Assembly (NCBI GenBank): GCA_020853015.1 | Contig: JADYZQ010000344.1 | Coordinates: forward strand, 1-32,355 | Length of the DNA stretch: 32,355 nt | Source: Deltaproteobacteria bacterium | GTDB lineage: Bacteria; UBA10199; DSSB01 | Direction of reading: 5' to 3' | Part shown: one piece after another, positions 11,772-20,938 of the stretch | Numbering within the stretch: the stretch's first letter is position 1 | Layout: the number at the start of each line of letters is the position of its first letter | The notes under the pieces: generated by a model | Told to the model about the DNA's origin: nothing | The model's database searches: none | Seen by the model: the letters and a program-made list of their open reading frames with translations, nothing else | Program-made: the position numbers and the translations under genes

Positions 11772-12815
11772 CTAGACCGCCACGCCGGGACGCCGGCGGC
11801 CGGGGGCAGCCCTCAAGGGTGTCGAGCGACGCCTCAAGAGCAGTTTCTGAGGACTCAGCTGAACCCAAAACCCTCCCTTGAGCGGCAACTCGATTCCCTC
11901 AGCCGTCTTCTCCAAGCCCGCCAGCAAGGGGGGAAGGATCTTCCCGAAACTCTGCTCGCGGCCCGTCCCACCTCGCAGCCAGGCCTCCAGGACGGAGGCC
12001 CGCAGGGCCGGTGGCAGGCGCTTGAGGGCGCGCCGATCGAGGGCGGCGGGGCCGGCCGCGCTTCCCCGGGCGGCGCGCCGCAGCCAATCTTGAGCCAGGG
12101 TCTCCAAGGCCGCGGCGGTCTGGCCGGCACGGGCCGCGAAGACGGCGAGCACCTCTTGGATCCTCGGGTTTTCCTCTGCCATCCGCGGCAAGATCCGATG
12201 CCGGATCCGGTTGCGCAGATAATCGTCGCCGTCGTTGGAACGATCATGGTGGAAGCCCAGGCGGTGGCTTCGGGCGTAGAGCTCCAGGGCCTCCCGCGGC
12301 ACCTCGAGAAAGGGCCGGAAGACCCAAAGCCCCCCGATCTCCTCGAGCTCGTCCATGCCCCGCAAACCCTTGAGACCGGCGCCGCGCAACAGTCGGGCCA
12401 GGACGGTTTCGGCCTGATCGCCTTGATGGTGGGCCATCCAAATCAGGCCGCTCCCGCCGGACCGGGAGGCGATGAGGCTCCGAAAGAAAGCCAGGCGTCG
12501 CTCCCTGGCCCAGGCCTGGAGGTTGGACGGCTTCGCTCGGGGACGAAGCCGCAGCACCCGGATTGGCACCCCTTCCCGCCCCGCCCAGTCCTTAAGCGAG
12601 GCCTCTTCCCGATCGGAATCCGGCACGCGCAGGCGATAATTGACATGGGCGAAATGCAGGGAGGGCAAGCGAGGACGCAGCCGGAGGGCGACCGCGGCCA
12701 GCACGGTCGAATCCAGACCGCCCGACACCGCAATCCAGACCGGCAACGCCCGCAGCGCCTTCGGCAGCGCGAGGTAGCGGCTCATCAGCCTCTTTGGCAG
12801 GTCAACGCGTGGCAC
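11772..12815 (-). CDS. tilS: tRNA(Ile)-lysidine synthetase
   Basis: PP-loop VSGGLDSTVLA, HVNYRLR, AHHQGDQAETVLARLLRGAGLKGLRGM, RNRIRHRILP. Confidence 0.93.
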   Translation of the reverse strand: MPRVDLPKRLMSRYLALPKALRALPVWIAVSGGLDSTVLAAVALRLRPRLPSLHFAHVNYRLRVPDSDREEASLKDWAGREGVPIRVLRLRPRAKPSNLQAWARERRLAFFRSLIASRSGGSGLIWMAHHQGDQAETVLARLLRGAGLKGLRGMDELEEIGGLWVFRPFLEVPREALELYARSHRLGFHHDRSNDGDDYLRNRIRHRILPRMAEENPRIQEVLAVFAARAGQTAAALETLAQDWLRRAARGSAAGPAALDRRALKRLPPALRASVLEAWLRGGTGREQSFGKILPPLLAGLEKTAEGIELPLKGGFWVQLSPQKLLLRRRSTPLRAAPGRRRPGVAV

Positions 12816-13296
12816 TCGTTTGGAATCCGATCCAAGTCTCGTAGAGGATCAATCCCGCCGGCACGAAGAAAAAGAAGAACAGCCCCAACCCGCCGACGGT
12901 GAAGAGCGAGGCCGCATGGGGGGAATAATAGCGCAGCAGGAAGGGCGCGGCATTATAAATCAAAATGGAAAGCGCGCCGCCGGCGACGATCGCCTTCTTC
13001 CACCCCGGACGCAGGGGTGTGAAGTGAAGCCCCAGCCACAACGAGAGAAAAACAAGCGGCATGGTGAAACTGTGGACGTGGGCGGTCTGCAAAAGCTGGG
13101 GATAGAGCTTGGGCATCTGCATGCCGCCGCTCGCCTCGTCGCCGAGGTAGTAGACGACGGTCTGCTCATGGCTGAGGCCGTAGTGCTGACGGCTCATCAG
13201 GCCCGCGATGCCGAAGGCAACGGAAGTCAAAAGCAGGTAGGCCGTGACCGCCGACTTGAGACCTCCGTTTTGTCGATGAAGCCTAGGACTTTCCAT
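12802..13296 (-). CDS. Small polytopic membrane protein of unknown function (about 4 TM segments)
   Basis: Overlaps the start of tilS and the end of the FMN-binding gene by 14 nt each. Several hydrophobic segments and a membrane-proximal HVHSF...GLHF histidine cluster. Confidence 0.7.
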   Translation of the reverse strand: MESPRLHRQNGGLKSAVTAYLLLTSVAFGIAGLMSRQHYGLSHEQTVVYYLGDEASGGMQMPKLYPQLLQTAHVHSFTMPLVFLSLWLGLHFTPLRPGWKKAIVAGGALSILIYNAAPFLLRYYSPHAASLFTVGGLGLFFFFFVPAGLILYETWIGFQTSATR

Positions 13297-13864
13297 AAAA
13301 GATCCGCCACAGGACCAGGGCCCGCTTCACGCCCACCACCAAGGCATGGGAGGAAAGCGTCGCCCCCGAGATGTTGACGATGTCGCCGTGCAGGCGCAGC
13401 TCGCTGTTGAGGTCCTTCTGCTTGAACTGGTTGAGGAAGCGCCGGGAAGCCACCTCCCCGCCGTGGCTCTCGCGATAGACCATCACCTCGACGGCGTCCA
13501 CCCGGCCCTCGGGACTGATTTTGGCGACGAAGGTGATCGGCTGAACCTTGCCGACCTGCTCGTCGATCACGGCGTAGCCGTCGACGCGGCCTTCCGTCTT
13601 GCCGACGTAGAAGACGTAACGGTCCTTGGGGAGTTCGTATTTGAGCTCCACCTCGGCCTTGCGGCGCACTTCGTCGGTGACCGGGTGTTCTTCCTTCAAA
13701 ACCTCCTGGGAGTTTTTGAAAATCAGTTTAAGGGCCTCGGCGGGCTTCAGATAGACGGTGGTCTGGGCCAGGCCCGACCCTTCCGCGCCGAGCAGCGCGG
13801 CCAGCGCGAGGAAAGCTGAAAGTAATTTTCTCGTCAAAGGCACGGGACTCCTTGCTTGCCCCAA
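13283..13864 (-). CDS. Exported FMN-binding domain protein (RnfG/NosR-type FMN_bind)
   Basis: Signal peptide-like N-terminus, and C-terminal VNISGATLSSHA matching the ApbE flavinylation motif [S/T]GA[S/T]x[S/T]. Confidence 0.82.
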   Translation of the reverse strand: MGQARSPVPLTRKLLSAFLALAALLGAEGSGLAQTTVYLKPAEALKLIFKNSQEVLKEEHPVTDEVRRKAEVELKYELPKDRYVFYVGKTEGRVDGYAVIDEQVGKVQPITFVAKISPEGRVDAVEVMVYRESHGGEVASRRFLNQFKQKDLNSELRLHGDIVNISGATLSSHALVVGVKRALVLWRIFYGKS

Positions 13865-14016: not shown

Positions 14017-15507
14017 TTAAAATCCGAAGGCCGTCCCGAACAGGAAGGCATGGTTCTTGTCGTCGGGCGACGGAAGATAGTTCGTCACCGAGGCCAGGGA
14101 CTGCCCCTTGTTGGTCTGGGTGTACTCGTAGGCCAGTTGGAAGACCGCCAAGGGATTCAGTCGAAAGGCCAGTCCGGCCGTCACACGGTCGACCCGGCGA
14201 TTGGTCGTCGTGAAGGTGGTCAGAACGCCGTTAGTGACCGTGGCGTCGGTGATCAAGCCGCGCAAGAAGGCCTGCTCCCAACGGACGATGGGAATCAGTT
14301 GCGGGTCGGAAAAATGCCGGCCGAACCAGGATTGGGTCAGCCACTGCGGCCGAAAGTGATAGCGCAGCTCGACCCAATAGCCGTGCTTGGTGCTGGCCAG
14401 GGCGCCGGGCTCGAATTTGGTCTCAAGCTCGATGCCGGGGTTATCCTCGATCTCTGCCTCGACCTCGGAGTTGAAGACCTTACCGCCCAAGTCGGCCATC
14501 ACGTCTTGCAGGCCATCGAAGTGGGTCAGGACGTACTGGGCCTCAATGTCGAAGTTTCCGAAGGTGGAAAGCCAATCGAAGCCGAAGACGGTCAGCTTGC
14601 GGTCGATCACAAAGCCGGGCGTATAGCGCCCCCAGTAGCCGGAGAGGCCGATCTCGTGGCCCAGGACCGGGCTGAAGGCGATGCGGCCGGTGACGGCCTT
14701 GGCGTCTTTGACATCCTGCGAGAAAGTGCCGGTATTGATGTCGAGCACGGCCTCGAATTCGACTTTATTGGTGTCGCCCGGCCGGGTCTCGATCTTTTCC
14801 TCGAACTGCGCGTCCAGGGTGACGCCGTTGACGACGTAAATCTGATAGTCGAGCTTGGATTTCTCGCCCAATTCGATGTCGCCGTTCAGACCGAAGCCCA
14901 GCTCGTCCCAAGCCGATGTGGTAGGCAGGACGGGGACTCCGCGGTCGACCAGCGAGCGCCTCGGCAGGTTCCAGACGTTGTCGTCGTGGTTGATGTTGAA
15001 GCGCCCGATCGGCACCAGGACGCCGCCGCCGCGCAAGCGGATGTAATTGGCGAACTCCAACTCGAACCAGGCTTGCTCCATCGCGATCTCGGAGCTGTTG
15101 GTGCCCTCGATCTCCTGCTTGACGTCGACCCCGCCGTCGGCGCGGGGTGTGAATTCCTTCTCGAGCTCGATCTTGCGAAAGCGCTCGAATTCCAGCTCAG
15201 AGTAGATGCGGAATCGGGAGGCGATCTTGGCGTCGGTGGTCAAGACGAAGCGGCGGAAAGTGAAGGTGTCCTTGGGACCTGAAGCGGAATCGGCCTCGAA
15301 GCGGATCGAGCCGTAACCGCCCAGCTTGAAATAGGTCTTGTCGTTGCCGAACTTCGCCAGCGGCTTGTCCCCGTAGCGGCTGTCGGCAGGCTTCGACTCC
15401 GTCTCCTCGGGGTTGAATTTAAGCTCGGGCTCGGCCGCGCGGGCCGGGGCGCCCTGACCCAAGCAGTAGAGAAGCGCCGCCGCTCCCAGGATCCACTTCT
15501 TCTTCAT
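14017..15507 (-). CDS. Outer-membrane beta-barrel porin (phosphate-selective porin-like)
   Basis: Signal peptide MKKKWILGAAALLYCLGQGAPARAA, alternating beta-strand pattern, C-terminal aromatic (FLFGTAFGF). Good RBS (GGAGGTGAACGATG). Confidence 0.75.
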   Translation of the reverse strand: MKKKWILGAAALLYCLGQGAPARAAEPELKFNPEETESKPADSRYGDKPLAKFGNDKTYFKLGGYGSIRFEADSASGPKDTFTFRRFVLTTDAKIASRFRIYSELEFERFRKIELEKEFTPRADGGVDVKQEIEGTNSSEIAMEQAWFELEFANYIRLRGGGVLVPIGRFNINHDDNVWNLPRRSLVDRGVPVLPTTSAWDELGFGLNGDIELGEKSKLDYQIYVVNGVTLDAQFEEKIETRPGDTNKVEFEAVLDINTGTFSQDVKDAKAVTGRIAFSPVLGHEIGLSGYWGRYTPGFVIDRKLTVFGFDWLSTFGNFDIEAQYVLTHFDGLQDVMADLGGKVFNSEVEAEIEDNPGIELETKFEPGALASTKHGYWVELRYHFRPQWLTQSWFGRHFSDPQLIPIVRWEQAFLRGLITDATVTNGVLTTFTTTNRRVDRVTAGLAFRLNPLAVFQLAYEYTQTNKGQSLASVTNYLPSPDDKNHAFLFGTAFGF

Positions 15508-15529: not shown

Positions 15530-15546
15530 ATGAAAGTTGCTTTCAT
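15530..15546. promoter_or_regulatory. Operator-like palindrome ATGAAAG-TTG-CTTTCAT (Fur-box candidate, porin side)
   Basis: Perfect 7-3-7 inverted repeat, 23 bp upstream of the porin ATG. Core TGAAA-N5-TTTCA is shared with the sites at 15660 and 19195. Confidence 0.6.
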
Positions 15547-15658
15547 AAACTGATCGGGTGGATAATCGATGGCGCCGCGGGGCGTCAAGAATAAATTTTA
15601 GGTATTTACTTTAATTTCAGATATAAGCCCGGGGCGCGGGACAGCGGTCCGGGAATCG

Positions 15659-15675
15659 TTGAAATTCCATTTCAA
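15659..15675. promoter_or_regulatory. Operator-like palindrome TTGAAAT-TCC-ATTTCAA (Fur-box candidate, apbE side)
   Basis: Perfect 7-3-7 inverted repeat, about 20 bp upstream of the apbE ATG at 15695. Confidence 0.6.
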
Positions 15676-15694
15676 TGAGGTTAGGCCTGTCCCC

Positions 15695-16588
15695 ATGGCC
15701 CGATCCGCCTTATTCCTTGCCCTCTTAGCCTGCCTGGGCTGCGCGCCCCGCGAGATCACCCTGACCCGTTCCCGTCTCCTGATGGGGCACGTCCCGGTCA
15801 ACTTAAGCCTGCGCTGCCCCGCCGCCGACCGGGAACGCGCGCTCGCGGAGAGCGAGGCGGCCTTCCGCCTGGCCCAGGAGATCGAGGCCAAGATCAGCGA
15901 GTGGCAGCCCGATTCGGAGCTGAGCTGCCTCAACCGCAAGGCCGGCCGCGGCAACTGCCCGCTGACCGAGAACACCCGCGCCCTGCTGGAGCTCTCCCTC
16001 GCCCTCAGTCGACAAACCGACGGGGCCTTCGACATCCGTTTCGCCTCCCCGTCACGGGCCGGCCAGGAAGGCGAGATCCGCCTGGCGGGAGACCGCGGCG
16101 CCCTCCCCCACCCGGAGACACGGATCGGCGTGGGGGCTATCGGCAAGGGCTGGATCGTCGACGCCATGCTGGATTACCTCCAAGGCCGAGGCTACGCAGC
16201 CGCGATCGTCGACGCGGGGGGCGACCTCAGGGCCCTGGGCGGCCCTTGGAAGGTCGCCATCCAAGTGCCGGAGGGCGCACCCGACCGAATCACCGTCCAA
16301 CGCGAAATCCGCGACCGGGCCCTCGCCACCTCCGGCCTCTACGAGCAGGGATCTCACATCCTCGACCCGTCCACCCGGCGCCCCGTCGCCCGCCGAGGCA
16401 GTGTGAGCGTCGAGGCCTCGCGCCTCGCCATGGCCGACGCCCTGGCCACCGCCTTCTTCGTCCTGGGCGAGACGAAGAGCCTCACCTACCTGCCGAAATT
16501 TCCGGGAGTGAAGATGTATTGGACCGATCCGGACGGAAACGTCCGAGCCTACGCGGCGGAGGGCGCCGCCATTCAAGCACCCAAGTAA
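15695..16588 (+). CDS. apbE: FAD:protein FMN transferase (lipoprotein)
   Basis: Lipobox LLACLGC; ISEWQPDSELSCLNRKAG, TDGAFDIRF, VGAIGKGWIVDAML, AAIVDAGGDLRALG, ATSGLYEQGSHILDPSTRRP. Start moved from the track TTG (15659) to ATG 15695. Confidence 0.93.
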   Translation: MARSALFLALLACLGCAPREITLTRSRLLMGHVPVNLSLRCPAADRERALAESEAAFRLAQEIEAKISEWQPDSELSCLNRKAGRGNCPLTENTRALLELSLALSRQTDGAFDIRFASPSRAGQEGEIRLAGDRGALPHPETRIGVGAIGKGWIVDAMLDYLQGRGYAAAIVDAGGDLRALGGPWKVAIQVPEGAPDRITVQREIRDRALATSGLYEQGSHILDPSTRRPVARRGSVSVEASRLAMADALATAFFVLGETKSLTYLPKFPGVKMYWTDPDGNVRAYAAEGAAIQAPK

Positions 16589-18477
16589 AGCGCGAGCCGA
16601 TAGGTGAGAAAAGAGGCCAGATAAGCCAGGCCGGTGAGGTAGAGGAATAGGACCGCGGGCCACTTCCAGGAATTGGTCTCGCGCCTCACCACGGCCAAGG
16701 TCGAAAAACACTGCATCGCGAAGACGAAATAGACGAGCAGGCTCAGGCCCGTCGCCAGACTCCAGCGGCGCTGCAGGATCCGGCCCAAGGCGTCCTCGCC
16801 CACCGCCGCCCCGCCGTCCTCCACCGAATAAACCGTCGCGAGGGTCCCGACGATCACCTCCCGCGCCGCCATGCCCGTCAAGAGCCCGATGCCGATCGAC
16901 CAATCGAAGCCGATGGGACGGATCGCCGGTTCGATGGCGTGGCCGATGCGGCCCGCCAGGCTATAGGTGATGGCCGGCCGCCCGGGATCCGCGTCAGCGG
17001 GCGGCTTGGGATAGGAGGATAGGAACCAAATCACCACCGAAACCGCCAGGATGACCGTCCCGGCCCGGCGTAGAAAAAGCCGGGCCCGCTCCCACATGCC
17101 GATCAGCACGTTGCGGAGGCTGGGCCATTTATACGTGGGCAATTCCAGCAGGAAGGTCGGGGTCGGCCCGCGAAAGACGGCCTTCTTGAAGACCCAGGCC
17201 ACGATCAAGCCCGTGACCAGGCCCAGGGCGTAGAGCCCCAGCATCACCAGGCCCTGCAGGCGGAAGGGCCCCCAAACGACGCGGTTGGGAATGAAGGCGG
17301 AGATCAGCAAGGTGTAGACCGGCAGCCGCGCCGAGCAGGCCATCAGGGGCGAAATCAGGATCGTGGTCAGACGATCGCGGGGATTTTCGATGGTGCGCGC
17401 CGCCATGATGCCGGGGATCGCGCAGGCGAAGGAGCTGAGCAACGGGATGAAGGCGCGGCCGTGCAGTCCCACGCGCCCCATCTGGCGGTCCATCAGGAAG
17501 GCGGCGCGCGCCATGTAGCCGGAATCCTCGAGCAGTAGGATGAAAAAGAAGATCATCAGGATCTGCGGGAGGAAGACTACCACCGAGCCCACCCCGGCCA
17601 GGACGCCGTCGACGAGCAGGTTTTGCAGCCACCCCTGGGGAAGCAGGGCGCGCAAGCCTTCGGAGATCAGCCCGATTCCGCGCTCGATCAAGTCCATGGG
17701 GTAGCTCGCCCAATTGAAGATGCTCTGAAAGACGAAGGTCAAGATGGCGACGAGCAGCAGCGAGCCCCAGAGCGGGTGCAGGACGGCGCGGTCGATCCGG
17801 TCGGTCCAACGGGCGGGCTTCAAATGGGCGGCATTGGCCAGCTTCAGGATGCGGTCGATCTCGCGAAAGCGCGCCCGCACTTCCTCCGCGCCGTGCCGCG
17901 GCAGGGTCCAAGCGCTCTCCGGGAAGGCCTGCACCAAGGGCCGCGGCCTCTCCCCCACCCGCCTCAGCATTTCCTCCAACAGCGGATCCAGGCCTTCTTT
18001 TTTCACCGCCACGACGGGAAAAACCGGAATGCCCAATTCGCGCGCCAGGACCTCCAGGTCGATCTCGAGGCCGCGGTTTCTGGCGAGGTCCATCATGTTG
18101 AGGACGAGCACCATCGGGAAGCCCAAGTCTTTCAACTCGAGGACGAGGCTCAAGCTGCGCTCGAGATTGGTGGCGTCCGCCACCGCCACCAAGAGGTCGG
18201 GCGGCGCGCCCTCGATTTTTCGCGTCAGCAGGACATCGCGGGTGACGGCCTCGTCGAGGGTGTTCGCGTCGAGGGTGTAGGTGCCGGGCAGGTCGAGGAT
18301 CTTGAGACGGTGGCCGCCGGGGCGCTCGATGCTGCCTTCCTTGCGCTCGACGGTGACGCCTGGGTAATTGCCGACGCGCTGCCGGCCCCCCGTCAAGGCG
18401 TTGAACAGGCTGGTTTTCCCGGAATTGGGGGAGCCGACCAGGGCGACGTAAGGTTGGGACAACTCGGAGACGCTCAC
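16573..18477 (-). CDS. feoB: Ferrous iron transport protein B
   Basis: GTPase GSPNSGKTSLFNALTGG, DLPGTYTL, NMMDLA; Gate motifs LLSSFACAIPGIMAARTIEN; C-terminal TM segments. Confidence 0.96.
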   Translation of the reverse strand: MSVSELSQPYVALVGSPNSGKTSLFNALTGGRQRVGNYPGVTVERKEGSIERPGGHRLKILDLPGTYTLDANTLDEAVTRDVLLTRKIEGAPPDLLVAVADATNLERSLSLVLELKDLGFPMVLVLNMMDLARNRGLEIDLEVLARELGIPVFPVVAVKKEGLDPLLEEMLRRVGERPRPLVQAFPESAWTLPRHGAEEVRARFREIDRILKLANAAHLKPARWTDRIDRAVLHPLWGSLLLVAILTFVFQSIFNWASYPMDLIERGIGLISEGLRALLPQGWLQNLLVDGVLAGVGSVVVFLPQILMIFFFILLLEDSGYMARAAFLMDRQMGRVGLHGRAFIPLLSSFACAIPGIMAARTIENPRDRLTTILISPLMACSARLPVYTLLISAFIPNRVVWGPFRLQGLVMLGLYALGLVTGLIVAWVFKKAVFRGPTPTFLLELPTYKWPSLRNVLIGMWERARLFLRRAGTVILAVSVVIWFLSSYPKPPADADPGRPAITYSLAGRIGHAIEPAIRPIGFDWSIGIGLLTGMAAREVIVGTLATVYSVEDGGAAVGEDALGRILQRRWSLATGLSLLVYFVFAMQCFSTLAVVRRETNSWKWPAVLFLYLTGLAYLASFLTYRLALYLGA

Positions 18478-18480
18478 GCT

Positions 18481-18741
18481 TCAGGCCTTCCGCACCGTCA
18501 CGCAGGAGGCCTCTTGCCGGCGCAGCGCCAGCAGGCCGCCGCGCACCCGCACCGCCACCGGATCGCCGCCGAAGGGGGCCTCGTGGACGATCTCGACGTA
18601 GGCCTCCTCGACCATGCCCATCTCCAGCAGTCGCCGCACCGTCGCGTCGGGGCCCTCGATGCGGCAGATATAGCCGCCCTGCCCCTTGCGCATCTGGCCC
18701 AGGGGCAACGGTTGGTCGGGCAATGTCTCGCGTCCGGTCAT
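18481..18741 (-). CDS. feoA: Ferrous iron transport protein A
   Basis: 86-aa FeoA/SH3-like protein directly upstream of feoB: LPLGQMRKGQGGYICRIEG...RRLLEMGMVEEAYVEIVHEAPFGGDPVAVRVRGGLLALRRQEA. Confidence 0.9.
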   Translation of the reverse strand: MTGRETLPDQPLPLGQMRKGQGGYICRIEGPDATVRRLLEMGMVEEAYVEIVHEAPFGGDPVAVRVRGGLLALRRQEASCVTVRKA

Positions 18742-18748
18742 GGAATTC

Positions 18749-19183
18749 CTATTCGTTTTGGCATCGGCTGCAGCAGCCGTAGATCTCGTGGCGGTGGCTG
18801 ACGATCTTAAAATTGATGCGCTTGGCGACCTGCTCTTGGAGTTTTTCGATGCGGTCGTCCTCGAATTCGTTGATGCTGCCGCACTTGATGCAAATCATGT
18901 GGTCGTGGTGATCCCCCGCCTTCTCAAACAGCGATTTGCCGTCGCCGAAATGGCGCTGATGCGCCAACCCGCATTCCTTGAGCAGCATCAGGGTGCGGTA
19001 GACGGTGACGTAGCCGATCGAGGGCTCGATCTTCTTCACTTGGTTGAGCAGCTCCTCGATCTGGAGATGCTTGTTCGACTTGAGGAATTCGCCGACGATG
19101 ATCTCGCGCTGCCGGGTGTGCTTCATCCCGTGCTCATCCAAATACCGGTTTAGGACTTCCATGGGGTCTTGGGTATGGGCCAT
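18749..19183 (-). CDS. fur: Ferric uptake regulator family protein
   Basis: HTRQREIIVGEFLKS, GYVTVYRTLMLLKECGLA, DHHDHMICIKCG, CSRC. Start trimmed to MAHTQDP (19183) because the track start runs through the palindrome. Confidence 0.93.
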   Translation of the reverse strand: MAHTQDPMEVLNRYLDEHGMKHTRQREIIVGEFLKSNKHLQIEELLNQVKKIEPSIGYVTVYRTLMLLKECGLAHQRHFGDGKSLFEKAGDHHDHMICIKCGSINEFEDDRIEKLQEQVAKRINFKIVSHRHEIYGCCSRCQNE

Positions 19184-19194
19184 GCCGCCTCCGC

Positions 19195-19209
19195 TGAAAA
19201 CCACTTTCA
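19195..19209. promoter_or_regulatory. Operator-like palindrome TGAAA-ACCAC-TTTCA (Fur-box candidate, fur-feoA-feoB)
   Basis: Same TGAAA-N5-TTTCA core as in the porin/apbE intergenic region, 12 bp upstream of the fur ATG. Confidence 0.6.
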
Positions 19210-19251
19210 AATGAGTTACACCCGGCCCGGGAGGGCGTCAATAGGAGTTTG

Positions 19252-20326: not shown

Positions 20327-20938
20327 ATGACGCGCATCCTGCTCATTGAAGACAATGAAGACCATGCCGAATTGATCCGACGCTCCTTGCAAAAGGGTTT
20401 TGGAAAGATTCAATTGAAGCTTTCACCCAGCGCCGAGGACGCCTACCGCCTCCTGCAGCGCAAGGCCTTCGATCTCATCCTCAGCGATTATTATCTGCCC
20501 GACATCGACGGGGACACTCATATCCGCGAGCTCCACAAGCGGGCTCCGAAAATCCCCATCGTCATCATCACCGGCCAAGGCGACGAAAAAATCGCGGCTC
20601 GGTCGATCCAATCCGGCGCCGAGGATTACGTGGTGAAGACCCGCGAAGCGCTGGAGGCCCTCCCAGCCATCCTGAAGCGCGCCATCGTCAAGCACCGCAG
20701 CCATCAAAACAAGAAGAGCCTGGAAATCCGCCGGCACCTCAGCCATCAGAAACGGCACGCAGAGAAGGTCCTGGGCGAGATGGAAGAAATCAACAAGCAC
20801 ATGAAACGGCTCAAGCGCGGCAAGCGCAAAAAGTCGACGCGCCCGGAAGGCGGCGAGGATCCTTCCGCGATCGAACAGCTGACTCAACAGTTCGAATCGT
20901 TGAAAAAATTTTTCAAAAGCATGTTCGTCAAGAAGTGA
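20327..20938 (+). CDS. Response regulator receiver protein with a Lys/Arg-rich C-terminal extension
   Basis: ILLIEDNEDHAELIRRSL, LILSDYYLPDIDGDTHIREL, IVIITGQGDEKIAARSIQSGAEDYVVK. No recognised output domain. Confidence 0.9.
   Translation: MTRILLIEDNEDHAELIRRSLQKGFGKIQLKLSPSAEDAYRLLQRKAFDLILSDYYLPDIDGDTHIRELHKRAPKIPIVIITGQGDEKIAARSIQSGAEDYVVKTREALEALPAILKRAIVKHRSHQNKKSLEIRRHLSHQKRHAEKVLGEMEEINKHMKRLKRGKRKKSTRPEGGEDPSAIEQLTQQFESLKKFFKSMFVKK

Follow-up and report, generated by a model that had tools for sequence, protein, structure and literature searches.

Iron-uptake and flavin genes share a palindrome

The window analysed here, a stretch of DNA of 32,355 nt, carries a fur-feoA-feoB operon on its reverse strand. 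The first gene (18749..19183) encodes an iron-sensing repressor of 144 aa (PF01475, 4.2e-35), for which the closest solved structures are Fur proteins; it is followed by feoA (18481..18741; PF04023, 2e-18) and by feoB (16573..18477; TIGR00437, 512 bits, 2.5e-153), which encodes a ferrous iron transporter and is the only feoB above the cut-off in its own genome. On the forward strand lies apbE (15695..16588), which encodes a periplasmic FMN transferase (PF02424, 3.4e-47). These family-profile matches agree with the gene names that an earlier note had given to fur, feoA, feoB and apbE. Divergent from apbE, three reverse-strand genes follow in the order porin, FMN_bind and membrane protein. The outer-membrane porin (14017..15507) is related to Porin_O_P-type porins: it has no significant Pfam match itself (OMP_b-brl, 0.016), and its homologues in the relatives G007, G017, G022 and, weakly, G032 match Porin_O_P (PF07396). 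The FMN_bind protein (13283..13864; PF04205, 1.8e-7) carries the flavinylation motif SGATLSS and is the likely substrate of ApbE; the (S/T)GATLS motif is kept in nine relatives. ApbE attaches FMN to motifs of this kind, and the cluster combines it with an FMN_bind protein that has the (S/T)GAT motif, as expected of a flavinylated iron-assimilation cluster. The last gene (12802..13296), conserved beside FMN_bind in most relatives, encodes a small membrane protein with about four helices and a conserved HVH motif; a single-sequence model of it is helical but of low confidence (pLDDT 63).

Perfect copies of TGAAA-N5-TTTCA are present at 15531-15545, 15660-15674, 19195-19209 and 20901-20915. Only 0.02 would be expected in the window from dinucleotide shuffles, and none of 100 shuffles reached four, which bears out the earlier view that chance is unlikely in 32 kb. 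The three palindromes of common architecture reported at fur, apbE and the porin gene are indeed all perfect matches: one precedes the fur operon (19195..19209, reverse; TTGAAAGTGGTTTTCAG on the fur strand), one precedes apbE (15660..15674, forward; TTGAAATTCCATTTCAA) and one precedes the porin operon (15531..15545, reverse; ATGAAAGCAACTTTCAT on the porin strand). The distance to the start codon, previously given as 12-23 bp, is 20 bp for apbE (ATG at 15695) and 23 bp for the porin gene (ATG at 15507); at fur (ATG at 19183) it is 11 bp and falls outside that range. The fourth copy lies inside coding sequence, as had been noted, near the 3' end of a response-regulator gene, and we set it aside as a coding coincidence.

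The box at fur can be placed relative to a predicted promoter. Upstream of fur, a -35 element TTGACG (19236..19241, reverse) is followed after a 17-bp spacer by a probable -10 element TAACTC (19213..19218, reverse), both assigned from sequence and alignment. A few bases separate this likely -10 from the box downstream, which would therefore span the predicted transcription start, a natural place for a repressor. A second fur box, shifted by 6 bp, was dropped because its upstream half is accounted for by the -10 element. The porin operon has a similar putative promoter, with TTGACG (15583..15588, reverse) and TTATCC (15560-15565, reverse) separated by 17 bp; at apbE no promoter stands out as clearly.

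The palindrome corresponds to the deltaproteobacterial dFUR-box

The motif had been likened to a relaxed form of the 15-bp Fur box. It is the known dFUR-box instead of a loosened E. coli box: Rodionov et al. (2004, PMC545781), reasoning in the same way, described this 17-bp palindrome, WTGAAAATNATTTTCAW, for metal-reducing deltaproteobacteria, in which it precedes feoAB and fur. Each of the three window sites agrees with the consensus at 13 of 16 positions, the remaining intergenic sites of the genome at 13-15; the centre follows the consensus less strictly here than in the published set. The regulon of Geobacter, Desulfuromonas and Desulfovibrio shares with ours the palindrome and its location at fur and feoAB; it also includes porins weakly similar to PF07396 and a cytochrome c gene (PMC545781), and both kinds of target have counterparts here, in an outer-membrane porin whose relationship to PF07396 is weak and in a cytochrome c-type gene. 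Our genome differs in belonging to another lineage and in adding apbE, FMN_bind and the small membrane protein to the cluster. A further precedent is the operator at feoAB1 of MSR-1, TGCAA-ATCAT-TTGCA, on which MSR-1 Fur was crystallised as one dimer (Nat Commun 2015, PMC4506495). It is likewise a 15-bp TGnAA-N5-TTnCA inverted repeat with 5-5-5 geometry, although it has C at the third position where A stands here, and MSR-1 is an alphaproteobacterium. The type of operator is therefore already known and the lineage that carries it is another; the dFUR-box and its typical targets are hereby extended to an uncultured lineage.

The boxes are conserved at orthologous promoters

Phylogenetic footprinting, proposed earlier as a check, showed that the boxes are retained in relatives. 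A perfect box lies directly upstream of fur in all seven genomes of the family (our own and G001-G006) and in five more distant genomes of the class, against a chance level of about 0.001 box per 250-bp upstream region; several more distant Fur orthologues have no perfect upstream box. When the seven fur promoters were aligned, TTGAC of the -35 element and the box TTGAAAGT with TTTCA were invariant, and most other columns varied. The apbE box has a perfect counterpart at the orthologous position in G001, G002 and G004, and the porin box is perfect in G001, G002 and G003, with one mismatch in G004. Across the apbE-porin intergenic region of four genomes, overall four-way identity is 25%, and the two boxes and the porin -35 element (CTTGACG, invariant in all four) stand out.

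These footprints bear on whether the palindromes could be chance occurrences, or short hairpins in 5' leaders that act in RNA, with no role for Fur. In favour of such an origin, AT-rich genomes often contain this palindromic pattern, and perfect copies can arise from conserved coding words such as LKLIFK. Set against this are the expectation of 0.02 copies in the window, the weakness to be expected of a hairpin whose stem has 5 bp, three of them A-T, and, at orthologous promoters, the retention of the arms of the apbE and porin boxes while their centres change. We regard an origin in chance or RNA structure as extremely improbable.

In G002 and G004, perfect copies occur inside the FMN_bind coding sequence (L102:6810 and L103:919), where they are produced by the LKLIFK codons. 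We rejected them as operators, and such copies are a trap for motif scans.

A single true Fur is encoded beside the boxes

The window Fur has H39, E87, H93, H95 and E106 together with H92, D94, E113 and H130, which we take to be the sensory metal ligands of Fur, so that a Fur domain and a complete ligand set are both present; the two cysteines of its structural zinc site are there as well. Its best NCBIfam models are Fur equivalogs, with a score of 106 bits that is below their cut-offs (146-220), a shortfall to be expected in a divergent lineage. Apart from fur, the genome has one Fur-family gene, a paralogue on contig C120, which reads CGGVQD in the regulatory-site stretch where the window Fur reads CGSINEF (with E106). 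Glu versus Asp in the CxxCGxxxE/D stretch separates Fur from PerR-type proteins, and the paralogue accordingly looks PerR-like by sequence.

We considered whether the palindromes might serve this paralogue or another metalloregulator. The paralogue is present in the same genome, and the 15-bp palindromic geometry is common to Fur-family members. However, it has Asp where Fur has Glu, its own upstream region contains no perfect box, and the boxes are located at fur itself and at iron genes; in addition, no DtxR-type regulator was found in the genome. Control by a regulator other than the window Fur is therefore very unlikely. The window Fur, moreover, has Lys21 and Tyr62-Arg63 at the positions of the DNA-reading Lys15 and Tyr56-Arg57 of MSR-1 Fur, so that the base-reading Tyr-Arg pair is common to both (PMC4506495).

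Given the published dFUR-box, footprints in seven genomes, one true Fur and no other plausible iron regulator, a Fur regulon with autoregulation is the best-supported reading of the locus, and the palindromes are in all likelihood Fur operators of the dFUR-box type. Alongside the computed site identities, conservation, gene identities and Fur residues, we infer Fur binding, iron dependence and repression. When Fe2+ is plentiful, a dimer of the window-encoded Fur would bind the boxes and block transcription of fur-feoAB, and thus of its own gene, as well as of apbE and the porin-FMN_bind-membrane protein operon. Iron scarcity would free the operators, allowing FeoAB to bring in Fe2+. This Fe2+ would probably be supplied by ferric reduction in the periplasm, through an electron-transfer route made up of the porin, the flavinylated FMN_bind protein, the membrane protein and ApbE.

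The predicted regulon extends beyond the window

To follow the motif genome-wide, we scanned the whole assembly (2.73 Mb, 81% complete), a check that the earlier note had proposed. Eleven perfect sites were found, compared with none for a reversed-pattern control, and their placement is non-random: nine are intergenic, of which the window contains three, contig C43 two and C109 four. The two coding sites are the window copy at 20901 and C170:3481, which falls within a glycosyltransferase-like gene and was also set aside as a coding coincidence. One-mismatch sites (59, versus 20 for the control) are near background and were left unused. The proposal of a local Fur regulon with autoregulation stands as regards Fur and autoregulation, but "local" is wrong, given six further sites on two other contigs. 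Several AT-rich class genomes with no close Fur orthologue likewise have more copies of the pattern than of its reversed control; raw counts are for this reason weak evidence by themselves, and the proof lies in position and conservation.

The pair of sites on C43 precedes an outer-membrane-like gene adjoining a DUF4382/MbnP-like lipoprotein gene. Those on C109 lie beside a MauG/MbnH-like di-heme gene and a divergent membrane gene, and beside two others, one a paralogue of the outer-membrane-like gene on C43 and one of unknown family. In G001 and G004, which cover a second genus, every one of these targets has retained one box or more at the orthologous position.

Some of these targets merit separate mention. 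The two outer-membrane-like proteins (L012:2602-3780 and L013:8718-9746) are 30% identical, matched no Pfam family and are encoded directly behind Fur boxes; both are conserved in G001 and G004. The di-heme protein gene (L013:6953-8644) also adjoins a box, as does that of the lipoprotein (L012:3956-4693), which matches DUF4382 weakly and has a G004 orthologue with a weak match to MbnP. Together they are possibly an iron-regulated MbnP/MbnH-like pair.

A putative flavin electron-transfer module is linked to Fur

The operators are of a known kind, and the flavin module is the part of the locus worth following. In G007, G015, G017, G022 and G032 the same set of genes, for porin, FMN_bind, membrane protein and ApbE, again lies beside Fur (G032 has its best ApbE match on a different contig), and all of these but G022 have a perfect box near the module. 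The FMN_bind orthologue co-occurs with the Fur orthologue, in 14 of 17 carriers versus 7 of the 28 others (45 relatives, relatedness uncorrected; Fisher p = 2.4e-4). PepSY-type flavinylation clusters have been tied to Fur and iron assimilation (Meheust et al. 2021, PMC8238504). In those Fur-repressed, PepSY-like clusters, as here, ApbE and a flavinylated protein are under Fur, and assimilatory iron reduction has been proposed; our cluster differs in having an unassigned small membrane protein in the membrane position and in the added porin. We recognised no PepSY, MsrQ, NapH-like, DsbD or NQR/RNF-like carrier in the window cluster, whose sole membrane protein matched no Pfam family. This protein is a possible electron donor to the FMN_bind protein.

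These observations suggest that the module, under Fur control, transfers electrons through flavin in the periplasm, perhaps as an assimilatory ferric reductase, and so feeds FeoAB. The ferric-reductase role is drawn from gene neighbourhood, and we hold it to be about evenly balanced. A plausible, somewhat less favoured alternative is that the boxes are genuine Fur sites and that the module does another iron-regulated job, such as respiration or metal efflux: FMN_bind/ApbE systems serve many electron acceptors (PMC8238504). Pointing instead to iron supply, the module adjoins feoAB and fur and is linked to Fur across the class, and Fur-repressed flavinylation clusters have already been tied to iron assimilation (PMC8238504). 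More tentatively, the porin, FMN_bind protein, small HVH membrane protein and ApbE might together be a flavin-based assimilatory ferric reductase of a type not described before, controlled by Fur, widespread in the class and feeding FeoAB; the membrane protein would then be a new membrane electron carrier. The genes behind the boxes are targets that can be tested, and they connect Fur with a putative flavin-based route of periplasmic electron transfer beside FeoAB.

Two further observations concern the module's surroundings. In G024 (L159) and G039 (L153), a perfect dFUR-box lies near the FMN_bind gene of the module, and our orthologue search among the relatives found no Fur orthologue in either genome; a missing contig or another regulator could account for this. 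In the window, tilS (tRNA-lysidine synthase) overlaps or abuts the small membrane-protein gene (11772-13296), an order kept in G002, and it may be co-transcribed with the Fur-controlled operon.
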